Position numbers and translations under genes: made by a program
Source: an uncultured Eubacteriales bacterium
GTDB lineage: Bacteria; Bacillota; Clostridia; Peptostreptococcales; Anaerovoracaceae
NCBI GenBank assembly: GCA_902786855.1
Contig: CADAEH010000002.1
Location: 245,244 to 309,243, forward strand
Reading direction: 5' to 3'
Length of the DNA: 64,000 bases
Shown here: piece after piece, positions 6,626-63,950 of the stretch
Layout: every line of letters begins with the position of its first letter
Numbering within the stretch: the first letter of the stretch is position 1
The notes under the pieces: model-generated
Seen by the model: only the letters and a program-made list of their open reading frames with translations
Told to the model about the DNA's origin: nothing
Databases searched by the model: none

Positions 6626-6645
6626 TGGAGCGTAGGGGGATCGAA
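6626..6645. other. Island left attachment site (tRNA-Ala 3' fragment)
   Basis: TGGAGCGTAGGGGGATCGAA is an exact 20-nt copy of 15751-15770, the 3' acceptor and T-arm end of the tRNA-Ala gene. Identity stops at both edges (left flank TTAA versus ATGG, right flank TTT versus CCC). An exact copy of a tRNA 3' end facing an integrase gene is the hallmark of tyrosine-integrase insertion. The chromosomal side here lacks an encoded CCA, so the original tRNA gene probably did not encode it and the element supplied it. Confidence 0.88.
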
Positions 6646-6748: not shown

Positions 6749-6785
6749 GTTATACTGTACGGCATTTTCTGCCCATAGTTTAGCA
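6749..6785 (-). CRISPR. CRISPR-like repeat, copy 3 (distal)
   Basis: Identical over 37 bp to the copies at 9163-9199 and 11387-11423. In minus orientation it begins TGCTAAACTATGGG and ends CGTACAGTATAAC. The 36-37 bp length and partly inverted ends (GTTATACT against TAGTTTAGC) resemble type II CRISPR repeats. This copy is the one farthest from cas2; beyond it come the integrase arm sites and the left attachment site. Confidence 0.75.
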
Positions 6786-6833
6786 TAACAGAGATGGTTC
6801 TTTTTGTCACATTTCGATACGTGCACTGTTCCA

Positions 6834-6868
6834 CCGGCGTCTGAGCCGGCTTCTTTTATTTGCCGGTA
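6834..6868. terminator. GC-rich hairpin after Abi/HEPN gene
   Basis: CCGGC and GCCGG segments between 6834 and 6866 can form alternative stem-loops; on the plus strand one is followed by TTCTTTTATTT, on the minus strand the U-run is poor. It lies about 40 nt beyond the stop of the minus-strand gene ending at 6904. It may end transcription of the interval-B genes, but the direction is uncertain. Confidence 0.35.
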
Positions 6869-6903
6869 GAGATTTCATTACAGAACCTGTTCTGCATTAT
6901 AAC

Positions 6904-7638
6904 TTATGACAGTTCCTTTTCGATATCTTCTATATAATCTACGACCGAGTCTGCCATACCCATTGCAAGCTGCGCTTCTCTTTTTTTGATCAGTTGTCCG
7001 TCAGGATGTACTGCAGCTATACTGTTTCTCAGTTCATTTATCGTATCCATGAGCTCTCCTGTGCTTAGAAGGATGTTTTTGATTCTGTCTCCGACTTCTG
7101 ACGGCTGGATGTGTGAGTCGTAATATCCCTGAAGTTTCGTCAACAGCGCGTATACGCTTTTATCTGTTTCGAAATGCACGTCGTGTTCTGTGAGAATATG
7201 CTTAATATAATCAGAAAACGCGGTATGAATACGATCAAAGGCATGGTCATAACTTCCCTCTCGTATGAAAAGGTCTGCATCTTCTACTGCCTTCCGAAAC
7301 GCGAGATCTTCTTCCCGCTCTAAGTCCTGCTCAGCAAGCTGGCGAATCGATACAGTTGAAAGGAGGTCTTTGGATCCCTTCTGGAACTTTACCAGCGCAG
7401 ACATAATATCTCTCTCGACCTGCTCCTTCTTTTCTCCCAGAGCCATATAGTCTCTGTGCTTAAGATTGAAGATCAGCGCCTAATAATCGGTTCCCCAGCG
7501 CCAGCTGTCATGATAGCTATGCTCAAGGTCAAAGGCTGCTTTTTTTAGTACAGCGACTGCGTCGTCATTATTCTGTTCCTGCAGATAATTAAGCCCCTTA
7601 GATATCAGCTGATTCCAGTATTGATTTTTCTCTGCCAT
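6904..7638 (-). pseudogene. Abortive-infection/HEPN-type protein with in-frame amber
   Basis: From the ATG at 7638 the frame reads 52 codons (MAEKNQYWNQLISKGLNYLQ...), meets TAG at 7480-7482, and continues open in the same frame to 6904, giving 244 residues in total. Shorter frames starting at 7446 cover only the C-terminal part. The C-terminal region (GDRIKNILLSTGELMDTI, then ELRNSIAAVHPDG) matches the Abi_C/HEPN-like fold; Arg-x6-His in RNSIAAVH fits the HEPN RNase motif. It is likely a defence or toxin-type gene inactivated by one nonsense change from a Trp or Tyr codon. It is the last gene of interval B, just before the distal repeat. Confidence 0.7.
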
Positions 7639-7659
7639 GATAAACCTTCTTCTCTGCAC

Positions 7660-8688
7660 CTACTTCATGCACATCTCATCATCAGCCGGGAGGTCTTTCA
7701 GCCTGGCCGACGGCAATGACTGATACCAATATGCAACGCTTGTATAGTCATCATACCTCGAGCCTGTCCAGCCGAGGTTGTCTATTGTCATTCTGAACGA
7801 TTCCTCGAAATGGATCGGATCCGGCACGTGGAACCTGTACAGTAGAAACCGCTGCTGGCCGTTATAATTCTCGCGGTTGTCGCCATATATCGCATACATC
7901 CCGCTGTAATGCCCGCTGAATGTCTGGTACTGCTTTATATAAATGTCGTTTCCGAACGCGTATGAGCCGGTGAAGTAATCTTCGGTGCCTGTATAGTTGA
8001 TGGACGGATATACGTCATCGTCGATATACATCTTTGCCTCGCCTTCTACCCAGCAGGTATTATTGCCGTTCATGCCCGCGGCAAGTGTCACGCCAAGGAA
8101 CTGCCCTTTCCCCTTTATTCCATCAATGATAGTGTAGCTTCTTCCTTTGACGACCGGATGCTCCTGCCTGTACGAAGCGTGGAAATATGCTATGTTATCC
8201 GGTACGTCGCGTCTGCACCCCGTGATTATGTAGTATAGGTCTTCATCCCTGTCGCTGCGGTTCTCCATCGTTATGCGGCAGTGCTTCCTGAATGGCATCT
8301 CGAAGAAGCAATTGTACCCCCTGCCCGGAGCCACCAGCATTACAGCAGAGTTGAGCACCGGATATCTGCCGTCCCTGTCGGCGAAGTTCTCGTCATATGC
8401 ACAGCCGAAAAAAGCCGAAAGCGGCGCTTCGACCGATGGATATTCCTGTCCATCCCAGTACATGCGCAGGATAAAGCTGTGGCCGACATATCCGGTGAAC
8501 CACATGTTCTGGATCATGCCGGAGCCTTCCACCTCAGCGAGAGTGACCGTCTCTCCGGCGTGGATCGTCACAGTTGGAGATAGCTTAGTGCAGTCAGCCC
8601 CACGTGAGCCACCCCCACGTTCACCCGTAGGGTTCTCCGCAGAGAATGCGAAAGTCTTATCGTTATTAAGCATTGTGTAATCCTTCAT
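7660..8688 (-). CDS. DUF2961 / GH172 glycoside hydrolase
   Basis: 342 aa from the ATG at 8688, which has AAAGGA directly upstream; a longer frame to 8727 overlaps the preceding GNAT and has no better signal. Family features are the N-terminal ENPTGERGGGSRG, the central TGTEDYFTGSYAF motif around residue 220, and the C-terminal RFHVPDPIHFEESFRM. GH172 enzymes act on fructofuranosides or arabinofuranosides through a double jelly-roll fold and assemble as oligomers. No signal peptide is present, so it is likely cytosolic. It lies inside interval B of the island between a truncated GNAT and an Abi/HEPN pseudogene, with no transporter nearby. Confidence 0.85.
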   Translation of the reverse strand: MKDYTMLNNDKTFAFSAENPTGERGGGSRGADCTKLSPTVTIHAGETVTLAEVEGSGMIQNMWFTGYVGHSFILRMYWDGQEYPSVEAPLSAFFGCAYDENFADRDGRYPVLNSAVMLVAPGRGYNCFFEMPFRKHCRITMENRSDRDEDLYYIITGCRRDVPDNIAYFHASYRQEHPVVKGRSYTIIDGIKGKGQFLGVTLAAGMNGNNTCWVEGEAKMYIDDDVYPSINYTGTEDYFTGSYAFGNDIYIKQYQTFSGHYSGMYAIYGDNRENYNGQQRFLLYRFHVPDPIHFEESFRMTIDNLGWTGSRYDDYTSVAYWYQSLPSARLKDLPADDEMCMK

Positions 8689-8719
8689 GATTCCTTTCCA
8701 TTTCCGGGAACAGACCCTA

Positions 8720-9157
8720 TTAGTCATATTTTAAAAGGCTGACACTTTCCAGTGTCTTCCCCGTCAGCCTGTATGTAGTCCACTCGTCCATCTGTGCTGC
8801 GCCGAGCGAACGGTAGAAATCTATGCTTGGCTGGTTCCAGTCAAGGCATGCCCACTCCAGTCTGCCGCATCCTCTCTCAATGGTAATCTGTGCCAGCTTT
8901 ACGAGCAATCCCTTGCCGTAGCCTTTTCCGCGATATTCAGGCAGCACGAACAAGTCCTCAAGATATATTCCAGCTCGGCCGAGGAATGTTGAAAAGTTAT
9001 GGAAGAATAAGGCAAACCCGACTTCCTTGTCTCCCTCACAGGCAAAGATCACCTCTGCCTTTTTCTTCTCGAATATCCACTCCTTCAGGAGCTCCTCCGT
9101 TGCCACTACCTGATCTGACATCTTCTCATAGTCAGCCAGCGCTTTTATAAAGCACAA
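8720..9157 (-). CDS. GNAT acetyltransferase, N-terminus cut at the repeat
   Basis: The 145-residue frame uses a TTG at 9157 and has no proper start or ribosome binding site. Family homology (LILCFIKALADYEKMSD) begins at the very edge of the repeat copy ending at 9163, and an in-frame TAA inside the repeat lies directly before it. Compared with the intact relative at 3319-3789, residues 1-14 are missing. The rest is complete, including the acetyl-CoA loop in LPEYRGKGYGKGL. The gene was therefore cut at the repeat boundary and is probably not expressed as a working enzyme. Confidence 0.8.
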   Translation of the reverse strand: MCFIKALADYEKMSDQVVATEELLKEWIFEKKKAEVIFACEGDKEVGFALFFHNFSTFLGRAGIYLEDLFVLPEYRGKGYGKGLLVKLAQITIERGCGRLEWACLDWNQPSIDFYRSLGAAQMDEWTTYRLTGKTLESVSLLKYD

Positions 9158-9780
9158 TATGAGTTATACTGTACGGCATTTTCTGCCCATAGTTTAGCAT
9201 TATCAACATAAACATTATCTGAGTAATTAAACCCTTCATCCAGAATGAAATCGACAGCCTTTGTATAATCTTCCGAAAGAATATATGCCAATAGTTTACC
9301 GACATCGATCTTAAGTGGGCTCGCGGCTATTATGTTGTCAAAATCCCCTTTCACAATCATTGTATGATTTCCGTCTTCCGGAGGATAGTCGTAATGCAGC
9401 CGGTAATCCCCATTTACTCCATGGTAAGTAATTCCTGTAAGCTCATTGTCGAAAACGAAACCATCTATTGTGCTTAACGTTAATTCATATCTGTATTTTC
9501 CGCCGGCAACTGCTATGTTTTCGCCACCTACAGTCAGTTCATAGCTTTCGTCACTTATATCGATCCACTTTTCACTTACAACATTTACTTTGTCCGATAA
9601 AGAAGGATCAAGCTCAACCGAAAACTGCGGCGTATCTCCGGCCCACAGTAAAGTGCAGATGTTTTTTATATCTACAAATATCTTCTGTTCTTCAGCAGCA
9701 TTATCCTCCGCATATACAGAGATCAAGCCTCCCATAAGGACCGTAACTGCAGCCAGTAATATAACGAATGTTTTTTTCAT
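9145..9780 (-). CDS. Secreted protein, C-terminus runs through the repeat
   Basis: The start is the ATG at 9780 (MKKTFVILLAAVTVLMGG), with GGGG 7 nt upstream; a longer frame to 9825 is less likely. Residues 1-25 are a signal peptide ending near VYAED. The remaining about 170 residues are beta-rich and unrecognised (YHGVNGDYRLHYDYPPEDG). After residue 194 the frame enters the repeat copy at 9163-9199, which is translated as AKLWAENAVQYN, and stops 5 codons later in the next interval. The natural C-terminus is thus probably missing. The start overlaps the stop of a small upstream ORF (TGATG). Confidence 0.65.
   Translation of the reverse strand: MKKTFVILLAAVTVLMGGLISVYAEDNAAEEQKIFVDIKNICTLLWAGDTPQFSVELDPSLSDKVNVVSEKWIDISDESYELTVGGENIAVAGGKYRYELTLSTIDGFVFDNELTGITYHGVNGDYRLHYDYPPEDGNHTMIVKGDFDNIIAASPLKIDVGKLLAYILSEDYTKAVDFILDEGFNYSDNVYVDNAKLWAENAVQYNSYCAL
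9163..9199 (-). CRISPR. CRISPR-like repeat, copy 2 (middle)
   Basis: Exact match to the copies at 6749 and 11387. It separates interval A (9200-11386) from interval B (6786-9162). A secreted-protein gene is cut on one side and a GNAT gene on the other, and deleting the repeat would not join them into one gene. It is translated in frame as part of the 9145-9780 reading frame. Confidence 0.78.
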
Positions 9781-9961
9781 CACAGTACCCCTTCCCCTGT
9801 CTTCCTGTTCCATTTCCTTGCCCATACTTCCAAAATATCGTCATAGTATTTCGGATTCATCAGGCGCATTGCCCAGAACGCGCCAAAGGCTCCTGCAACT
9901 ATAGTGATCCAGTATCTTATGCGGTCTCTTTTTCACTCGTTCCGATCCCTCCCTTTTTCAT
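9780..9961 (-). pseudogene. Small membrane protein gene, one-base frameshift
   Basis: An ATG at 9961 overlaps the MATE stop (ATGA) and a TGA at 9780-9782 overlaps the next start (TGATG), so the space behaves like a coupled gene. The first frame (MKKGGIGTSEKETA) stops early. The -1 frame from an A5 run at about 9926 reads RDRIRYWITIVAGAFGAFW and on to WARKWNRKTGEGVL, with one hydrophobic segment, giving about 61 residues. It is either a one-base deletion or slippage at GAAAAAG. Confidence 0.4.
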
Positions 9962-11346
9962 TGTCCTCTGTCCGTTATACTGTATGCAGAGCTATACCCT
10001 TTCCGGTTCTCTATCTTTCGTATGGTGTGGAAGTAACTGAATACGAGGACAACTACCGCACCACCCCATGCTGCTACCTCCGCTATAAAAAGGCCGTCCT
10101 CTCCTATGACTCTTGCTAATATGAGCGCAGAAGCTACTCTCATGATCAGCTCTGCGAATGCAGATACCATTGGCAGGAATGTATTGCCCAGGCCCTGAGT
10201 AGATGAGCGGAAAATATACAGAAGATAAAGCACCGGCAGGCACACACACATTATAGCAAGATACCTGTACGCCACATTCACCGTAGCTTCTATTTCTTCA
10301 GCCGTGCCCGAAACAAATCCCGACAGTATCATACGTCCTGTAAGCAGCATTACAGCCGCTATGACACATGCAGTTGCAATTGCTGCCCAGAAGGCAGATC
10401 TTACACCTTCATGAATGCGATCGATCCGTCCTGCTCCGAGATTCTGCGCGACATATGTTGTCATTGCAAAGCCGAACGATGATGTAGCGATCTCCAGTAC
10501 GCCGTGCATCTTTGCACCGGCTGTGAAGCCTGCAATGAATATGACGCTGAATGTATTCACTACAGACTGTACGACCATTCCGCCTACGACGATAAGAAAA
10601 TTCTGCAGCATCATAGGCGCGCTCAGTATCGCGATCGATCGCAGCAGCGGGATATCCGGGACAAGGTCAGCGCGTCTTATATGGAGCTGCCTGATCCTGA
10701 GTATAGCCGGCAGACAAAATACAGCAGAAAAGAACTGTGCGATTATCGTAGCCCAGGCGGCGCCGCCTATCCCCCATCTGAAAACACGTACAAAAAGAAG
10801 ATCAAGCGCTATGTTGATCACAGATGCAGTAATCATCGAATACAGCGGAGTCCTGCTGTCGCCAAGAGCTCTGAGTGTTGATGCCAGAAGATTATACGCA
10901 GTTATGACCGGTATCCCGGCATAAGAGATCTTCAGGTATATCAGCGCCTGCGGTATCAGCTCTTCCGGTGTTCCGAGGAACTTCAGCATTTCCGGGGCCA
11001 GCAGTTCACCGGCCGCCATCAGGCAGACTGCAAAACCTGCACACAGAACTATGGAATTGCCAAAGCCTTTGCGAAGCCTGCTCTCATCGCCCCGTCCGAA
11101 CGAATGCGCAAGGGTGATCGATACACCTTGTGACAGTCCCATTACCACTCCGAGAAATATCCAGTTTGGCCACGTAGATGCGCCAAGCGCTGCCAGAGCC
11201 GCGACACCAAGAGTCTTGCCCACTATCATGCTGTCGGCAACTGAATACATCTGCTGGAATATATTCCCGATCATCAGAGGAAACGCAAAGGTTACGATCA
11301 GCCTTACGGGCTTCCCCTCAGTCATAAGTTTAACGTGTGACTTCAT
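9958..11346 (-). CDS. MATE family efflux transporter
   Basis: 462 aa, about 12 membrane helices, full length. The N-terminus (KPVRLIVTFAFPLMIGNIFQ, then SVADSMIVGKTLGVAALAALGAS) and the repeated second half are characteristic of the MATE/DinF exporters, which expel cationic drugs or metabolites using Na+ or H+ gradients. It is the first gene of interval A, 41 bp after the leader-proximal repeat, with its own extended -10 element (TGCTATAAT, 11370-11378). No good Shine-Dalgarno sequence is seen. The substrate is unknown. Confidence 0.9.
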   Translation of the reverse strand: MKSHVKLMTEGKPVRLIVTFAFPLMIGNIFQQMYSVADSMIVGKTLGVAALAALGASTWPNWIFLGVVMGLSQGVSITLAHSFGRGDESRLRKGFGNSIVLCAGFAVCLMAAGELLAPEMLKFLGTPEELIPQALIYLKISYAGIPVITAYNLLASTLRALGDSRTPLYSMITASVINIALDLLFVRVFRWGIGGAAWATIIAQFFSAVFCLPAILRIRQLHIRRADLVPDIPLLRSIAILSAPMMLQNFLIVVGGMVVQSVVNTFSVIFIAGFTAGAKMHGVLEIATSSFGFAMTTYVAQNLGAGRIDRIHEGVRSAFWAAIATACVIAAVMLLTGRMILSGFVSGTAEEIEATVNVAYRYLAIMCVCLPVLYLLYIFRSSTQGLGNTFLPMVSAFAELIMRVASALILARVIGEDGLFIAEVAAWGGAVVVLVFSYFHTIRKIENRKGYSSAYSITDRGQ

Positions 11347-11369
11347 AGTCCATTTCCATACCTGTTCTG

Positions 11370-11378
11370 ATTATAGCA
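11370..11378 (-). promoter_or_regulatory. Extended -10 promoter of MATE gene
   Basis: On the minus strand the sequence reads TGCTATAAT, a perfect extended -10, 24 bp before the MATE start and 9 bp from the repeat copy at 11387. The -35 position would fall inside the repeat (GTACAG) and is weak. The gene can thus be transcribed independently of the leader. Confidence 0.55.
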
Positions 11379-11386
11379 CAGCAGGC

Positions 11387-11423
11387 GTTATACTGTACGG
11401 CATTTTCTGCCCATAGTTTAGCA
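11387..11423 (-). CRISPR. CRISPR-like repeat, copy 1 (leader-proximal)
   Basis: Exact match to the other two copies. It lies 115 bp beyond the cas2 stop, the position of the first repeat of a type II array. No second copy follows within about 70 bp, so there is no ordinary short spacer; the next copy is 2,187 bp away. Confidence 0.8.
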
Positions 11424-11538
11424 CGTTATTTTGTTACGATTATTCTATCATATACCAAATATAGCAACAACTATGTCAATTGAGCTGTTGGTTTATTCAT
11501 TTCCCGCAAATGTTCTTCCTGCATATATGAATGCCTTA
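11424..11538 (-). promoter_or_regulatory. Leader-like AT-rich region after cas2
   Basis: 115 bp between the cas2 stop and the first repeat, AT-rich and without an ORF. On the minus strand it has a consensus -35 (TTGACA) followed at non-ideal spacing by TATATGATAGAAT, a candidate promoter pointing into the array. Its position and composition match a CRISPR leader; function is inferred. Confidence 0.5.
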
Positions 11539-11844
11539 TCAAATCAGAATATGTCCGTTTTTCCCAACCACATCCTCTTGCCGGTCATGACCACCTGTTA
11601 AATACCAGATATTATCATATTGCTTTTCTGTCATCCGTATTACACGGATCACTCCTGACCCAGGATCATGCGTTTCCAATCTCCGGATATGTTTTTCAGC
11701 TGTTTTTCTGCTGGGCGTGATCCGCATAAATAGTTCGGTACCAATTCTGAGATATCCATCAGAGTACAGGAACTTTCTCAACTCAGTATATGCCATCTTT
11801 GTACCTCTCTTGTTTGTAGGATCCAAAAGTACCAGAATCCGCAT
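11539..11844 (-). CDS. cas2: CRISPR-associated protein Cas2
   Basis: 101 aa from the ATG at 11844 (MRILVLLDPTNKRG), which has AGGAG 9 nt upstream; another ATG at 11853 abuts the binding site. Beta strand 1 ends with the conserved Asp8. The rest matches type II Cas2: RKFLYSDGYLRIGTELFMRI, then GVIRVIRMTEKQYDNIWYL. Cas2 dimers bridge two Cas1 dimers and set the length of captured DNA during spacer integration. Relative to common Cas2 the usual FDLP is LLDPT. It is 18 bp downstream of cas1 and is the last cas gene. Confidence 0.9.
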   Translation of the reverse strand: MRILVLLDPTNKRGTKMAYTELRKFLYSDGYLRIGTELFMRITPSRKTAEKHIRRLETHDPGSGVIRVIRMTEKQYDNIWYLTGGHDRQEDVVGKNGHILI

Positions 11845-11862
11845 TATTATCATCTCCTCACT

Positions 11863-12765
11863 TTATTCCTTGACTGCTTCCAAGACTTCTATCGGCAGAA
11901 TTATCGGAAGTTTTAAATTGCTGGCATCACCGGTAACAATCCTGTTACGAAAACTCCCAACCATCTCATCTATTCCTGATAATACGGACACTTTCGTATC
12001 ATTGACCATACACGCATGGTGCAGTACCATTGCAATTTCCTTTCTTTTGGAACGGCTTAATACAGTAGAAGTTCCAGGATCACGCAGGGCAATCAAGTCC
12101 ACCATTGCTCTCCAGGGCTCAATCAGATCATCAGCCAGATTAAATGCGTTAAGATAATTGTCATGATGAATGCCAAGAGCAGGCTGAAAACCAGCTAGTA
12201 TTACAGCGCGGATTATTGCATTACGTATGACAGCATATCCATAATTTAAGCAGCTGTTCACCGGATCATCATTACGCCTGTTAAGGCCAGGATGAAGGTA
12301 ATGGAAATAGTCTTTCGCCGCATTAGCCTCTATTGCATCTATTTCATCTGAAGCAGTTGACGTATAGCGGAGGATTTTTTCAGAGCCATCCCTTCCAAGC
12401 AAGGTAAGTGCTCGCGCCTGGTTTTCGATCTTCCGCATTATTATTTGTTTCCAAATTTGATCCTTTACATCTGAGTTGAGCATTATCTGGTTTCGCATAA
12501 CTAAGGCCTGTCTGACATTTGAACGAATTGGAACAAGCATGCAGGACGGATGATATTTTTCATCAATTATCATTAAAGAAATCCCCGCCTCTGCGATCTG
12601 AGCTTGTGCCATAGTAGACATCCTGATATTCGCCCCGCTGCATACTATCGTTGTCAGATCCTCCAATGGAATCATTATAATTCCATCCTGATTTGTGATT
12701 TCGAGCTGAGACTTTCGCACATGGATCTCAGCAGAAGTACTGATTTCTAATGTCCTGAAGCCCAT
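11863..12765 (-). CDS. cas1: CRISPR integrase Cas1, type II-like
   Basis: 300 aa, full length. The N-terminal beta domain starts MGFRTLEIST, as in type II Cas1. The catalytic set is intact: Glu146 in IEANAAKDYF, His201 in GIHHDNYLNAF, and Glu216 in DDLIEPWR, the same spacing as in the type II-A enzyme. Cas1 joins captured DNA to repeats by two transesterifications. A perfect GAAGGAGGG precedes the ATG and a promoter lies at 12809-12837. No cas9, csn2 or cas4 is adjacent or elsewhere in the window; upstream is noncoding DNA and then an integrase module. Confidence 0.95.
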   Translation of the reverse strand: MGFRTLEISTSAEIHVRKSQLEITNQDGIIMIPLEDLTTIVCSGANIRMSTMAQAQIAEAGISLMIIDEKYHPSCMLVPIRSNVRQALVMRNQIMLNSDVKDQIWKQIIMRKIENQARALTLLGRDGSEKILRYTSTASDEIDAIEANAAKDYFHYLHPGLNRRNDDPVNSCLNYGYAVIRNAIIRAVILAGFQPALGIHHDNYLNAFNLADDLIEPWRAMVDLIALRDPGTSTVLSRSKRKEIAMVLHHACMVNDTKVSVLSGIDEMVGSFRNRIVTGDASNLKLPIILPIEVLEAVKE

Positions 12766-12808
12766 AATTGGTCCCTCCTTCTAACAAATAATCAATTCAG
12801 ATGGATTC

Positions 12809-12837
12809 TTAATACCAAAACAAGACCACGAAAACAA
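12809..12837 (-). promoter_or_regulatory. Promoter of cas1-cas2
   Basis: Minus-strand TTGTTT (12832-12837), a 17-bp spacer and TATTAA (12809-12814), about 43 bp before the cas1 start. It indicates that cas1-cas2 form their own two-gene transcript and have not simply lost an upstream cas9 from a read-through operon. Confidence 0.5.
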
Positions 12838-13624: not shown

Positions 13625-14122
13625 ATGAGCAGAAGGAAGAGATTTATTCCGAAAGATATTGAGTCGGCGAAAGGAGTAGGCGACACATCGGCCAATATCT
13701 ACCGCAGCATGTTGCTGCACCCGGCATGCAAGGATCTCACGGCCAGCCAGTTCAGGTTGTATGTATATTGCAAATCCGAATTATACGGAAAGAACCGGCA
13801 TGACCTTGATGGATTCCCTGCATATGTACGGGAAGATCCGGCGTATTTTACGTTCAACAAGGCGAAGTGGCAAAAGGATGGATTATATGGTCTGTACTCC
13901 AATTCCGGGCAGTTCTACAGGGATATAAAAGCTCTAATAGAGCATGGCTTTATAGACTGTGTACAGAGCGGATACAGCACGAGGACAAAGAGCTTGTACA
14001 AGTTCTCAACCAGATGGCAGTTGTGGGGAACAGAAAACTTCACAGTGCCGACGAGTGTGATGACTACCTCGATGCTCCGGGAATTGAATAAAGAAGGCAG
14101 CAGCTCAGATGATGAGAAGTAA
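13625..14122 (+). CDS. Island protein, possible winged-helix (165 aa)
   Basis: Not recognised as a named family. It is basic at the N-terminus (MSRRKRFIPKDIE), then has ASQFRLYVYCKSELYGKN and a segment NSGQFYRDIKALIEHGFID followed by a beta-hairpin-like stretch, which fits a winged-helix DNA-binding fold such as replication initiators or excision/regulatory factors of integrative elements. AAAGGAG lies 14 nt before the ATG, a long spacing. It precedes the integrase gene in the same direction with a 197-bp gap in which I see nothing. A role in element control is inferred from position only. Confidence 0.6.
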   Translation: MSRRKRFIPKDIESAKGVGDTSANIYRSMLLHPACKDLTASQFRLYVYCKSELYGKNRHDLDGFPAYVREDPAYFTFNKAKWQKDGLYGLYSNSGQFYRDIKALIEHGFIDCVQSGYSTRTKSLYKFSTRWQLWGTENFTVPTSVMTTSMLRELNKEGSSSDDEK

Positions 14123-14319: not shown

Positions 14320-15594
14320 ATGACTAGTAAGACGCCTCACGAAGAAATCCGGCTTCAGGACCTTTACAGCGCAGATGATGTCTTGTCAACGATATACGAA
14401 CAAGGTATATTGGACGAAGATGGCGTGCGACTCATTATGAGAAAAAAGCACCTGCAATTCGTGCTCAGTCATCATGAGCACAAGATCTGGCAATCTGCAG
14501 ACGGGCGCTGGAAAACATATATAACAGATGAGGAATCCGGTAAACGGAAACAGATCTCCAGAGAATCTAGAGAAGATCTGGAAGACTTTCTCTATGACAA
14601 GTATCTTGCAGAGGATGAGGAGCTGGCGAAGAAACGCGCTACCATGGAGTCTTTGTATGACGATTGGGCTGAGTATAAGAGCCTTTTCGTCTCAGAGGCT
14701 ACGATCAAAAGAGACAGAAACACATGGAAAGCCTTATATAAAGACGCACCCATTGTGAAAAAACCTCTTGTCTCTATTACGAAAACAGAGCTGGAGCGAT
14801 GGTTGCTCAGTGTAATTCGTTCAAAGAATATGAACAGCCACCAGTTCACCAACTTTATCAGTGTCGTAAGGCAGCTTATGGCGTATGCGGAAGAAATCGG
14901 AATAATAGAAAGCAACCCGGCCGAGAAGATCCACATACAAAAGAAGCGCATTCTCAAGCCTGAAGTCAAAGGACCTGCAATAACTCAGGTCTTCATGGAG
15001 GATGAGAGACAGATGCTGATAAAGCATGCGATGGAACAGTATGCTAAGCACAGAGATACTGTCCAGATTTTCACATCGCTGGCGATCGCATTCCTGCTAT
15101 ACGTCCCTCTCAGAAGAGGCGAACTCGTCGCTCTCAGATTTGATGATCTTGACGGGAACCGCCTTTACCTTACCGACTCATACAGTCATGATATGAAATG
15201 CCTTAAAGGCCGTCTCAAAGATATCGAAGGATGGAGGACCGTGGATGTTGTCCCTCCTGCCCTGGAGATAATCGAAAAGATCCGGCAGGAAAGGATCAGA
15301 CTGGGCATGCCGACAGATGGATGCATATTCACTGTTAATGAAAAGTATAGCAGTCTGTATTCTGCCCTCGGTAAGTCTATCAATAAATACTGTGATGAGC
15401 TCGGAATACCTAGAAGGAGTCTGCACAAGACAAGGAAGACCTGCGCATCCAAGATGCATGCTGATGGTGTCAATGATTTGATCATTCAGGCACAGCTTGG
15501 GCACAAAGACCTCAGAACGACATTTAACTCGTATTGCTACGACGTTACTACTGACGCGGAGAGATACCGAGCAATTTCAGCATCACTGGCCTAG
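14320..15594 (+). CDS. Tyrosine site-specific integrase of the island
   Basis: 424 aa. N-terminal arm-binding region to about 100, core-binding SAM-like domain about 105-205 (TMESLYDDWAEYKSLFVSE), catalytic domain about 230-420. Catalytic residues visible: Arg266 in PLRRGELVALR, His369-x-x-Arg372 in LHKTRKTC, His395 in QLGHKDLRTT, and Tyr405 in FNSYCYD. It recombines the element with the 20-bp core at the tRNA-Ala 3' end, 156 bp downstream. AAGGAGG precedes the ATG. It is of the Tn916/phage family type with a longer N-terminus. Confidence 0.93.
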   Translation: MTSKTPHEEIRLQDLYSADDVLSTIYEQGILDEDGVRLIMRKKHLQFVLSHHEHKIWQSADGRWKTYITDEESGKRKQISRESREDLEDFLYDKYLAEDEELAKKRATMESLYDDWAEYKSLFVSEATIKRDRNTWKALYKDAPIVKKPLVSITKTELERWLLSVIRSKNMNSHQFTNFISVVRQLMAYAEEIGIIESNPAEKIHIQKKRILKPEVKGPAITQVFMEDERQMLIKHAMEQYAKHRDTVQIFTSLAIAFLLYVPLRRGELVALRFDDLDGNRLYLTDSYSHDMKCLKGRLKDIEGWRTVDVVPPALEIIEKIRQERIRLGMPTDGCIFTVNEKYSSLYSALGKSINKYCDELGIPRRSLHKTRKTCASKMHADGVNDLIIQAQLGHKDLRTTFNSYCYDVTTDAERYRAISASLA

Positions 15595-15747: not shown

Positions 15748-15823
15748 TGGTGGAGCGTAGGGGGATCGAACCCCTGGCCTCAAGATTGCGAACCTTGCGC
15801 TCTCCCAGCTGAGCTAACGCCCC
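15748..15823 (-). tRNA. tRNA-Ala (CGC)
   Basis: 76 nt with encoded CCA. All arms fold: acceptor GGGGCGT/ACGCTCC with the alanine identity pair G3-U70, D-arm GCTC/GAGC, anticodon stem CAAGG/TCTTG with loop TTCGCAA (anticodon CGC, codon GCG), T-arm AGGGG/CCCCT. Its last 20 nt before the CCA are the island integration core. Confidence 0.95.
15751..15770. other. Island right attachment site within tRNA-Ala
   Basis: Exact 20-nt partner of 6626-6645. The element restores the tRNA 3' end here and adds its own CCA and terminator. Confidence 0.88.
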
Positions 15824-62861: not shown

Positions 62862-63950
62862 TTATAGGTTCTTCAAATGATCATCTAACAAGTTAACGCA
62901 TCCATCGTTTAGTTCTGAAAACACATCTGTATAAGTGTCTAAAGTGATATGGATGTCAGAATGCCCCAACCATTTTTTCAATACAACTGGCGGTATACCG
63001 GCTTCGATACATCTGGTCGCAAATGTGTGCCTCAGGGCATGCTGCCCTCTTGGTTCTATATGTGCCTTTTTACATATTCTACCGAAGTAATTAGACACAT
63101 CTGAAGTGCGGAGAGGCTTGCCGGAATAGCGATCGCAAAACAACAGATCCAGCTTATTTGGTTTCTGCCTTTCCAGTGCCTCTCGTAGATATGGTTCAAG
63201 CGCCCTGCTTATCGGGACATCTCTGTTCCCGTTTTGTGTTTTTGTGCCTTCCTTTATGAAAGGTTTGTTGTCTGTACCAATCGATATAGTTGAATGAACG
63301 TGAATTATATTCTTCTCAAGATCTATATCATCTGGTTTTAGTGCGTTGATCTCGCCCATTCTCATACCACTGTACAACTCAATGAATAACTGAAGTCTGA
63401 AATCATTACGTCCATATGGAGGTTCAGTGGTATTCATAGTATCTATAAGTCTGCTTTGTTCATTTCTGGTCAAAGCTCTGACCTTCTTATCTCTTCTGTC
63501 AGATATAGGTTTCCGGACTCTTTTTGATTTCATAGGATTATTTGTAATGAGCGCTTCCTCCTCAGCAATAGCAAATGCTGTCTTCAGGCACTGATGCAGA
63601 GCTTCGATCACACTGTTAGAGTAGTGTTTTACTGATACTCCGAATTCCTCTATTTCATTTATCCCAACCATTGATATCGGGATAGTTCCAATGACATTCT
63701 TCCCTATAATTCTAAGCAGCTCCCTCTTGCTTCGAAGAGTAGACTCTCCAATATGATTCGCTTCGTAATCACCTTCGTACTTTCGTTGCAAAATATCTGT
63801 AATAGTAGAGCTCTGGTCAAGGGGCCTGATTGACTCCATATACCTTTGAAGCCATTCTTCTGCTCTTTGACGGCATTCTTCTCTGCTGCCACCACTTATT
63901 GTGAGTATTCCGGCGTAGTTTCCCGCACCTGTCCGGCGTGAGGAAATCAC
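62862..63950 (-). CDS. Second tyrosine-type integrase
   Basis: 362 aa with a GTG start; an in-frame TGA lies about 48 nt upstream, near the window edge, and the open stretch between reads like integrase N-terminus (AGTVISSRRTGAGNYAGIL), so the 5' end could be frameshifted or begin further right. Catalytic residues: Arg in LYSGMRMGEINAL, HALRHTFATR, LGHSDIHITLDTYTDV with the final Tyr. Different from the island integrase. It likely belongs to an element mostly outside the window. Confidence 0.88.
   Translation of the reverse strand: MISSRRTGAGNYAGILTISGGSREECRQRAEEWLQRYMESIRPLDQSSTITDILQRKYEGDYEANHIGESTLRSKRELLRIIGKNVIGTIPISMVGINEIEEFGVSVKHYSNSVIEALHQCLKTAFAIAEEEALITNNPMKSKRVRKPISDRRDKKVRALTRNEQSRLIDTMNTTEPPYGRNDFRLQLFIELYSGMRMGEINALKPDDIDLEKNIIHVHSTISIGTDNKPFIKEGTKTQNGNRDVPISRALEPYLREALERQKPNKLDLLFCDRYSGKPLRTSDVSNYFGRICKKAHIEPRGQHALRHTFATRCIEAGIPPVVLKKWLGHSDIHITLDTYTDVFSELNDGCVNLLDDHLKNL

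Follow-up and report, generated by a model that had tools for sequence, protein, structure and literature searches.

Cas1-Cas2 modules of the Anaerovoracaceae beside repeat arrays with long, often gene-bearing inserts

The stretch analysed here (the window, 64,000 nt of the 2.9-Mb genome labelled G000 among the genomes compared) carries on its minus strand a cas1-cas2 pair, a leader and three repeats that are set apart by kilobase-sized segments, here called inserts. The arrangement is that of a clustered regularly interspaced short palindromic repeats (CRISPR) array, and its parts lie as follows in window coordinates:

6749..6785, minus strand: repeat 3 (trailing), the 36-bp repeat with its leading T, by exact repeat search
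6786..9162, minus strand: insert B, 2377 bp between the 37-bp copies, from the repeat positions
9163..9199, minus strand: repeat 2, by exact repeat search
9200..11386, minus strand: insert A, 2187 bp between the 37-bp copies, from the repeat positions
11387..11423, minus strand: repeat 1 (leader side), by exact repeat search
11424..11538, minus strand: leader, with terminal AATAACG-like bases common to relatives
11539..11853, minus strand: cas2 (TIGR01573, 9.5e-12; PDB 5xvn_E, 3.7e-10)
11863..12765, minus strand: cas1, type II-like, with E146, H201 and E216 invariant in 7/7 (TIGR03639, 8.6e-68)

The three 37-bp copies are exact and in one orientation, and the 2.9-Mb genome holds no further copy at up to three mismatches (reversed control pattern, 0 matches). 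Three such 37-mers adjoining cas1-cas2 cannot be chance. The original prediction, made from the letters alone, had described exact 37-bp repeats; the copies are indeed exact, but the relatives give a unit of 36 bp with a variable leading T. It was right about the inter-repeat distances of 2,187 and 2,377 bp, about an intact cas1-cas2 pair (both frames are open and both have profile matches), about a leader-sized gap of 115 bp, and about the direction of the interval genes, since all those with a Pfam name (MATE, GNAT, DUF2961 and Abi_C) point away from the leader. Exact same-orientation repeats behind a leader and adjoining cas1-cas2 make up the defining layout of CRISPR. Cas2 of the window falls slightly below the Pfam cut-off, and Cas1 belongs to the type II Cas1 family, with 228.6 bits against the curated model TIGR03639 (cut-off 120). 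Its residues E146, H201 and E216, which we take to be catalytic, align with those of the Enterococcus faecalis protein (5xvn).

The size of the inserts separates these arrays from ordinary ones. Across 18 arrays in 17 genomes, 37 closed inserts measure 196-2378 bp (median 393) and 0/37 is near 30 bp, compared with 29-31 bp for 70 spacers in six ordinary arrays; spacers of about 30 nt between these same repeats were thus found in none of the relatives. At least two identical 36-bp copies are present in 11/18 arrays, and the 23 inserts flanked by identical neighbouring repeats span the same size range as the whole set. A blastn comparison of all 37 inserts at E 1e-3 gave no resembling pair. Between the window and genome G227 they differ while the repeats stay exact, as had been predicted for related strains: the end of the carrying element is 91% identical over 159 bp, its integrase 94.6% identical and the repeats 36/36 identical, and the two G227 inserts (460 and 286 bp, each with a small complete open reading frame, ORF) are unrelated to those of the window. 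No Cas1 match was obtained in G227. The claim that such a Cas1-Cas2 pair assembles gene-sized inserts into arrays on an integrative element is supported and survives the tests that had been proposed for it.

Relatives of the window Cas1 lie on four other genome contigs, namely L034 (79%), L035 (78%), L036 (72%) and L037 of Mobilibacterium timonense (68%); at L035 three repeats are spaced by 256 and 232 bp, and at L036 two are spaced by 372 bp. A degenerate form of the repeat pattern is present in 14/48 same-genus and 26/350 family genomes (reversed control, 0). Only 5/26 repeat-bearing family genomes gave a Cas1 match, one of them (G076) broken, indicating that many arrays stand without their cas genes. 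When 394 genomes of the order were searched with a Cas1 alignment, three more members appeared (1e-155 to 1e-108), beyond which came partial members and then other type II Cas1s from 1e-42. These three and G068 have different repeat sequences in the same layout; there are five repeat families in all. L154 has seven 36-bp repeats, all identical; of the seven in L155, five are identical and two degenerate; L156 has two repeats, and L099 two with a common 23-bp core. The first repeat lies 70-120 bp downstream of cas2 in the window, L034, L035, L037, L154 and L155, and the trailing repeats of L155 and L076 have degenerated and those of L059 are truncated, which resembles the decay of CRISPR arrays. 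At the class level (391 genomes) the next Cas1s matched at 3.6e-74 or weaker, and 12 of the 22 matches were fetched as loci L202-L213. Long-insert arrays were seen only in Anaerovoracaceae within these samples of larger groups; the family assignment comes through the named member, for L034-L036 the placement comes from Cas1, and for two of these from the family genomes as well. In viral contigs the exact repeat occurred in 0 contigs and no relative of Cas1 was found; one contig showed the degenerate pattern, with one repeat.

In the named strain Mobilibacterium timonense, cas1-cas2 and a leader precede repeat 1, after which come at least 4.1 kb that start inside a UDP-GlcNAc 2-epimerase gene. 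We considered joining its contigs C3 and C4 as a single insert but do not make this join, since C4 starts with a transposase-like ORF. A single, identical, divergent repeat stands right before the element end in G135, G207 (two), G213, G226 and G237 (L066, L068-L072), with no second copy in these stretches; it is perhaps a fossil or a starting repeat. Copies resembling the local repeats also occur away from arrays at G296:C7:128829-128870 (in L185) and G199:C10:37976-38016.

In two trees the seven intact long-insert Cas1s form one clade (100/100). Their nearest rows in the second tree, L202-L204, have cas9 matches and 66-bp arrays (moderate support, 90/86; the L202 row is a fragment), and of the 16 outgroup loci read, 10 show an array period of 65-67 bp and 14 gave a match to cas9, at times a weak one. 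This pattern fits an origin of the long-insert Cas1 in a type II system that lost cas9 and length control. Among seven divergent members, with identities as low as 50%, Cas1 is intact and its active-site positions do not vary, which speaks for lasting selection.

No cas9 match was found by tblastn at ten module loci, where other effector types were not searched for, and a model search of six further genomes (including those of L154, L155, L156 and L099) gave 0/6. Among the 26 repeat-bearing genomes two have a cas9 that scores above the cut-off; it lies on another contig and has its own array of 66-bp period. G000 and G076 carry cas9 loci with unrelated repeats of 66-bp period. The one in G000 (contig C3, L130) is an ordinary type II locus with cas9 at C3:166070-170083 and 15 repeats; its cas1 lies in pieces at C3:165238-166034, the frame being interrupted by a TGA. 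Neither the uniform spacers of about 30 bp nor the cas9 that go with CRISPR-Cas immunity were thus found with the long-insert modules. A search for anti-repeats (trans-activating CRISPR RNA-like) at four loci gave nothing above the shuffled level, the high sense score at L155 coming from its own degenerate repeats.

One insert has an exact source. The third insert of L154 (253 bp, genome G296) is identical at 253/253 positions to C29:92501-92753 of the same genome, where the match ends exactly at both repeat borders and no repeat lies beside the source. This stretch of C29 overlaps the end of a gene for the major tail protein, and the terminase, major head and tape-measure genes around it (PHROGs) indicate a prophage. 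Since the source is still in place, at least one insert is a copy. Host genes have probably been copied into the L154 array too, judging from sequence overlaps of 55-103 bp: the ends of the first insert run into contigs C4 and C36 of G296, each with one part of an S8 subtilase gene that neighbours a Mur ligase gene, and the last, open insert matches the end of contig C5 (102/103), within a gene for an M23 peptidase next to recJ. For the remaining four inserts of L154 there is no full-length source in the 49 genomes searched, and for those of L155 no full-length copy in 48 same-genus genomes. Among phages and plasmids the L154 array gave only distant partial matches and the L155 array none.

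The insert ends share a motif. Read inward from each repeat border (n = 74), they have T at position 1 in 37 cases, A at position 3 in 47 (p = 9e-11) and A at position 4 in 40 (p = 1e-6), a degenerate symmetric TNAA that occurs on both insert sides, in window-type and other arrays. The motif score of 124 was reached by 0/20,000 permutations (mean 63, maximum 90), and so were the scores for the 46 ends between identical repeats (78 vs 39; 0/20,000) and for the 26 of these that are left without L154 and L155 (38 vs 22; 0/20,000). Cas1-Cas2 measures the DNA in a studied I-E-like complex (PMC10284694). If no length is measured, both ends would need to be chosen by sequence, and in our reading the integrase may choose both. 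Taken together, the exact prophage copy and the shared end motif point to copy-capture by an integrase.

The inserts tend to be read in one direction. By a mechanical count of ORFs of at least 45 aa with a ribosome site, 26/37 inserts have such an ORF; it reads away from the leader in 23 and the opposite way in 3 (p = 4.4e-5), and shuffled inserts gave 5.3 on average for one strand. Their contents include DUF6487, GNAT, amidohydrolase and rubrerythrin, and fragments of a molybdopterin and a Toprim domain. These findings would agree with capture at random, after which useful forward genes are selected. The window-type repeat ends in TATAAC, which resembles a -10 element, and a promoter borne on the repeat was considered and rejected as the repeats of L154, L155 and L156 do not end so. 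Scans of two leaders with a consensus promoter gave one site (mean of shuffles, 1.1) and none, so that transcription from the leader is only proposed.

Several smaller observations concern individual arrays. Insert 1 of L076 and inserts 1 and 2 of L081, in two genomes, encode small ORFs (61, 53 and 52 aa) that share by eye a T/S-x-x-AP-x-E-x-V-E-like pattern, without a Pfam match in 2/3 tested. In G230 a promoter-like stretch is duplicated on either side of a repeat-rubrerythrin-repeat unit (L059 9529-9602 and about 10988-11076). After the last repeat of G091 (L080 10278-10755) there is a DUF6290/ribbon-helix-helix gene with a ParE-like toxin gene, followed by a sequence like the 3' end of tRNA-Lys. 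Toxin pairs of this kind also occur in integron arrays.

The window array is carried by an integrative element, as indicated by 20-bp direct repeats, one of them inside a tRNA-Ala (CGC) gene, and by a tyrosine integrase. The remaining features of the element and of its inserts are:

6626..6645, no strand: element end, formed by a 20-bp direct repeat of the 3' end of tRNA-Ala, by direct repeat search
6904..7446, minus strand: insert B, Abi_C/HEPN gene, AbiJ-like (PF14355, 1.1e-9; PADLOC AbiJ, 1.7e-8)
7660..8727, minus strand: insert B, DUF2961 gene (PF11175, 1.1e-79)
8720..9157, minus strand: insert B, GNAT acetyltransferase with about 14 N-terminal residues missing at the repeat border (PF00583, 5.4e-19)
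9145..9825, minus strand: insert A, gene without family match, its frame crossing repeat 2
9958..11346, minus strand: insert A, complete MATE-family transporter (PF01554, 2.7e-47)
13625..14122, plus strand: 165-aa element protein without family match (97% in G227 over residues 1-108)
14320..15594, plus strand: tyrosine integrase of the element (PF00589, 9.8e-14)
15748..15823, minus strand: tRNA-Ala (CGC), the integration site, with the second direct-repeat copy inside (15751-15770)

Homologues of the GNAT protein at L114 and L115 are longer by about 14 residues, and the gene is truncated where insert B begins; the insert border hence cuts a gene. The MATE gene has same-genus homologues of up to 89% in DNA, with upstream contexts that differ in every relative, so that the border of its source cannot be fixed. 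Genes of both intervals occur on same-genus contigs in pieces only, and the window intervals look composite. At the end of the MATE gene, 11 bases at 9974-9984 equal the end of the repeat (TACAGTATAAC, minus strand) and coincide with the loss of similarity to relatives; this is perhaps an eroded repeat between two older inserts. A second, distant integrase match (23%) at 62931-63878 on the minus strand belongs perhaps to another integrated element.

We consider it quite probable, on comparative sequence grounds, that the arrays are made by an orphan Cas1-Cas2 module derived from type II, which has no cas9, is free of the limit of about 30 bp and would insert long DNA. Such DNA would enter next to the leader-side repeat, with the 36-bp repeat duplicated each time as in spacer acquisition; the inserting enzyme would be Cas1-Cas2 itself, and the TNAA motif would reflect ends chosen by sequence where no length is measured. 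The array might then be transcribed from its leader side, and inserts with useful forward genes might be kept by selection, giving an integron-like gene collector on elements integrated at tRNA genes. We infer that an integron-like role is likely. The broadest version, for which we claim only a slight leaning, is that a repurposed CRISPR module serves as a general gene-capture machine: DNA with TNAA-like ends, of about 200 bp to several kb, would be copied by a Cas1-Cas2 rid of its length ruler into a leader-driven array on a mobile element, and forward genes would be expressed and kept, as an independent counterpart of the integron.

Several observations weigh against this reading. A full-length exact source was found for one insert only, and for none of the window and L155 inserts in the genomes searched. 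The full TNAA stands at only 11/74 ends (1.5 expected), and 70 ordinary spacers have a weak excess of the same score (139 vs 120; 29/2000). Two identical repeat copies are lacking in 7/18 arrays, which rest on imperfect ones, and in 11/37 inserts an ORF with a ribosome site is lacking. Decay has affected several modules (L036, L079, L099 and L156, and a cas2 remnant at L076). L154 holds mostly cut genes in both directions, so that gene capture is not its plain purpose. Finally, the data are assemblies, mostly metagenome bins from sampled sets, and some arrays end at contig ends.

The content of L154 and L155 raises another explanation, that of an immune memory with long spacers: fragments of 200-500 bp, many of them from phages and conjugative elements, would be stored and act through long transcripts with a trans-acting or other effector, and kilobase gene inserts would be accidental. 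Phage- and mobile-element-like fragments in both arrays, the two directions within L154 and the cas9 loci elsewhere in two genomes agree with this; the genomes of L154, L155, L156 and L099 have no cas9, however, no anti-repeat exceeded the shuffled level at the four loci, L154 contains host-gene inserts, and the forward bias of the ORFs is not what such a memory predicts. We regard it as unlikely. Equally unlikely, to our judgement, is a broken, neutral by-product in which a Cas1-Cas2 deprived of partner and ruler inserts random DNA, to no advantage, into arrays that decay. Decayed cas genes at several loci, cut genes and ORF-less inserts would be expected from it, but the forward bias would not, nor would an intact Cas1 with invariant active-site positions in seven members as divergent as 50% identity.

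That the repeats are recombination sites of the element's tyrosine integrase, as in integrons, with cas1-cas2 as a passenger, is suggested by the integrase of the window element and by integrase genes or fragments near other arrays. An integron cassette brings its own site, whereas the G296 source has no adjoining repeat; moreover cas2 and the leader precede the first repeat in divergent members with unrelated repeats, and no integrase match lies near the L154 array in the stretch read, which makes this explanation very improbable. The composite look of the window intervals, matching relatives in pieces, could also reflect an ordinary CRISPR array whose layout was changed by homologous recombination, by deletions or by other elements that entered its spacers. 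We give this little credence, since no spacer of about 30 bp occurs among the 37 inserts, the end motif stands directly at the repeat borders and the 253-bp copy ends exactly at both. Least probable of all, we find, is an artefact of assembly or binning: the genomes are mainly metagenome bins, and the arrays of L034, L083 and L154 lie at or near contig ends, but the pattern recurs, with several repeat sequences, in 18 arrays of 17 genomes, data of the same kind yield ordinary arrays of 66-bp period, and the named M. timonense strain has the module, leader, first repeat and its long flank as well.

Should the reading of an orphan integrase module be correct, a CRISPR integrase can store and spread whole genes beyond memories of 30 bp, and evolution can do away with the length ruler of spacer acquisition. 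The modules would offer natural Cas1-Cas2 pairs for testing how spacer length is set, and an enzyme able to write DNA of kilobase size at a 36-bp site would be a useful recorder. Among the matches listed from open-access titles and abstracts, which leave subscription papers mostly outside, we found no description of long-insert Cas1-Cas2 arrays. The enzymes are of a known family, and the system as a whole lies outside the definitions of both CRISPR-Cas immunity and integrons.

Compared with type II adaptation (the E. faecalis Cas1-Cas2 of PDB 5xvn and the II-C-like loci L202-L207), Cas1 and Cas2 are homologous, and 36-bp repeats, a leader-side first repeat, degenerate trailing repeats and the copying of source DNA are shared. 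The differences are inserts of 196-2378 bp instead of about 30, the lack of cas9 beside the modules, a motif at both insert ends, the frequent presence of whole genes, and carriage on integrative elements. An integron is an array of gene cassettes, mostly in one direction, with a common site between the segments and a mobile context. The present arrays resemble it in all these respects, and one of them has a ParE-like toxin pair after its last repeat. However, Cas1-Cas2 would take the place of the integron integrase, inserts can be plain gene fragments, and the source DNA has no site, which is duplicated instead, with one exact source known (G296:C29). The integrase of the window lies at the opposite end of the element, and no integron-specific model reached its cut-off. 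Casposons are self-transposing elements with their own ends, a stand-alone Cas1 and PolB. In the present case Cas2 is there, the element ends are direct repeats of a tRNA gene accompanied by a tyrosine integrase, and no PolB was found among the Pfam matches of the element genes submitted. Whereas a casposon moves itself by its own ends, unrelated DNA here repeatedly enters one array beside cas2. Casposase is a Cas1-family enzyme that joins DNA far longer than a spacer with target duplication (PMC6977970), and to that extent the two are alike. The long-insert arrays would link spacer acquisition, casposon-like integration and integron-like cassette arrays.

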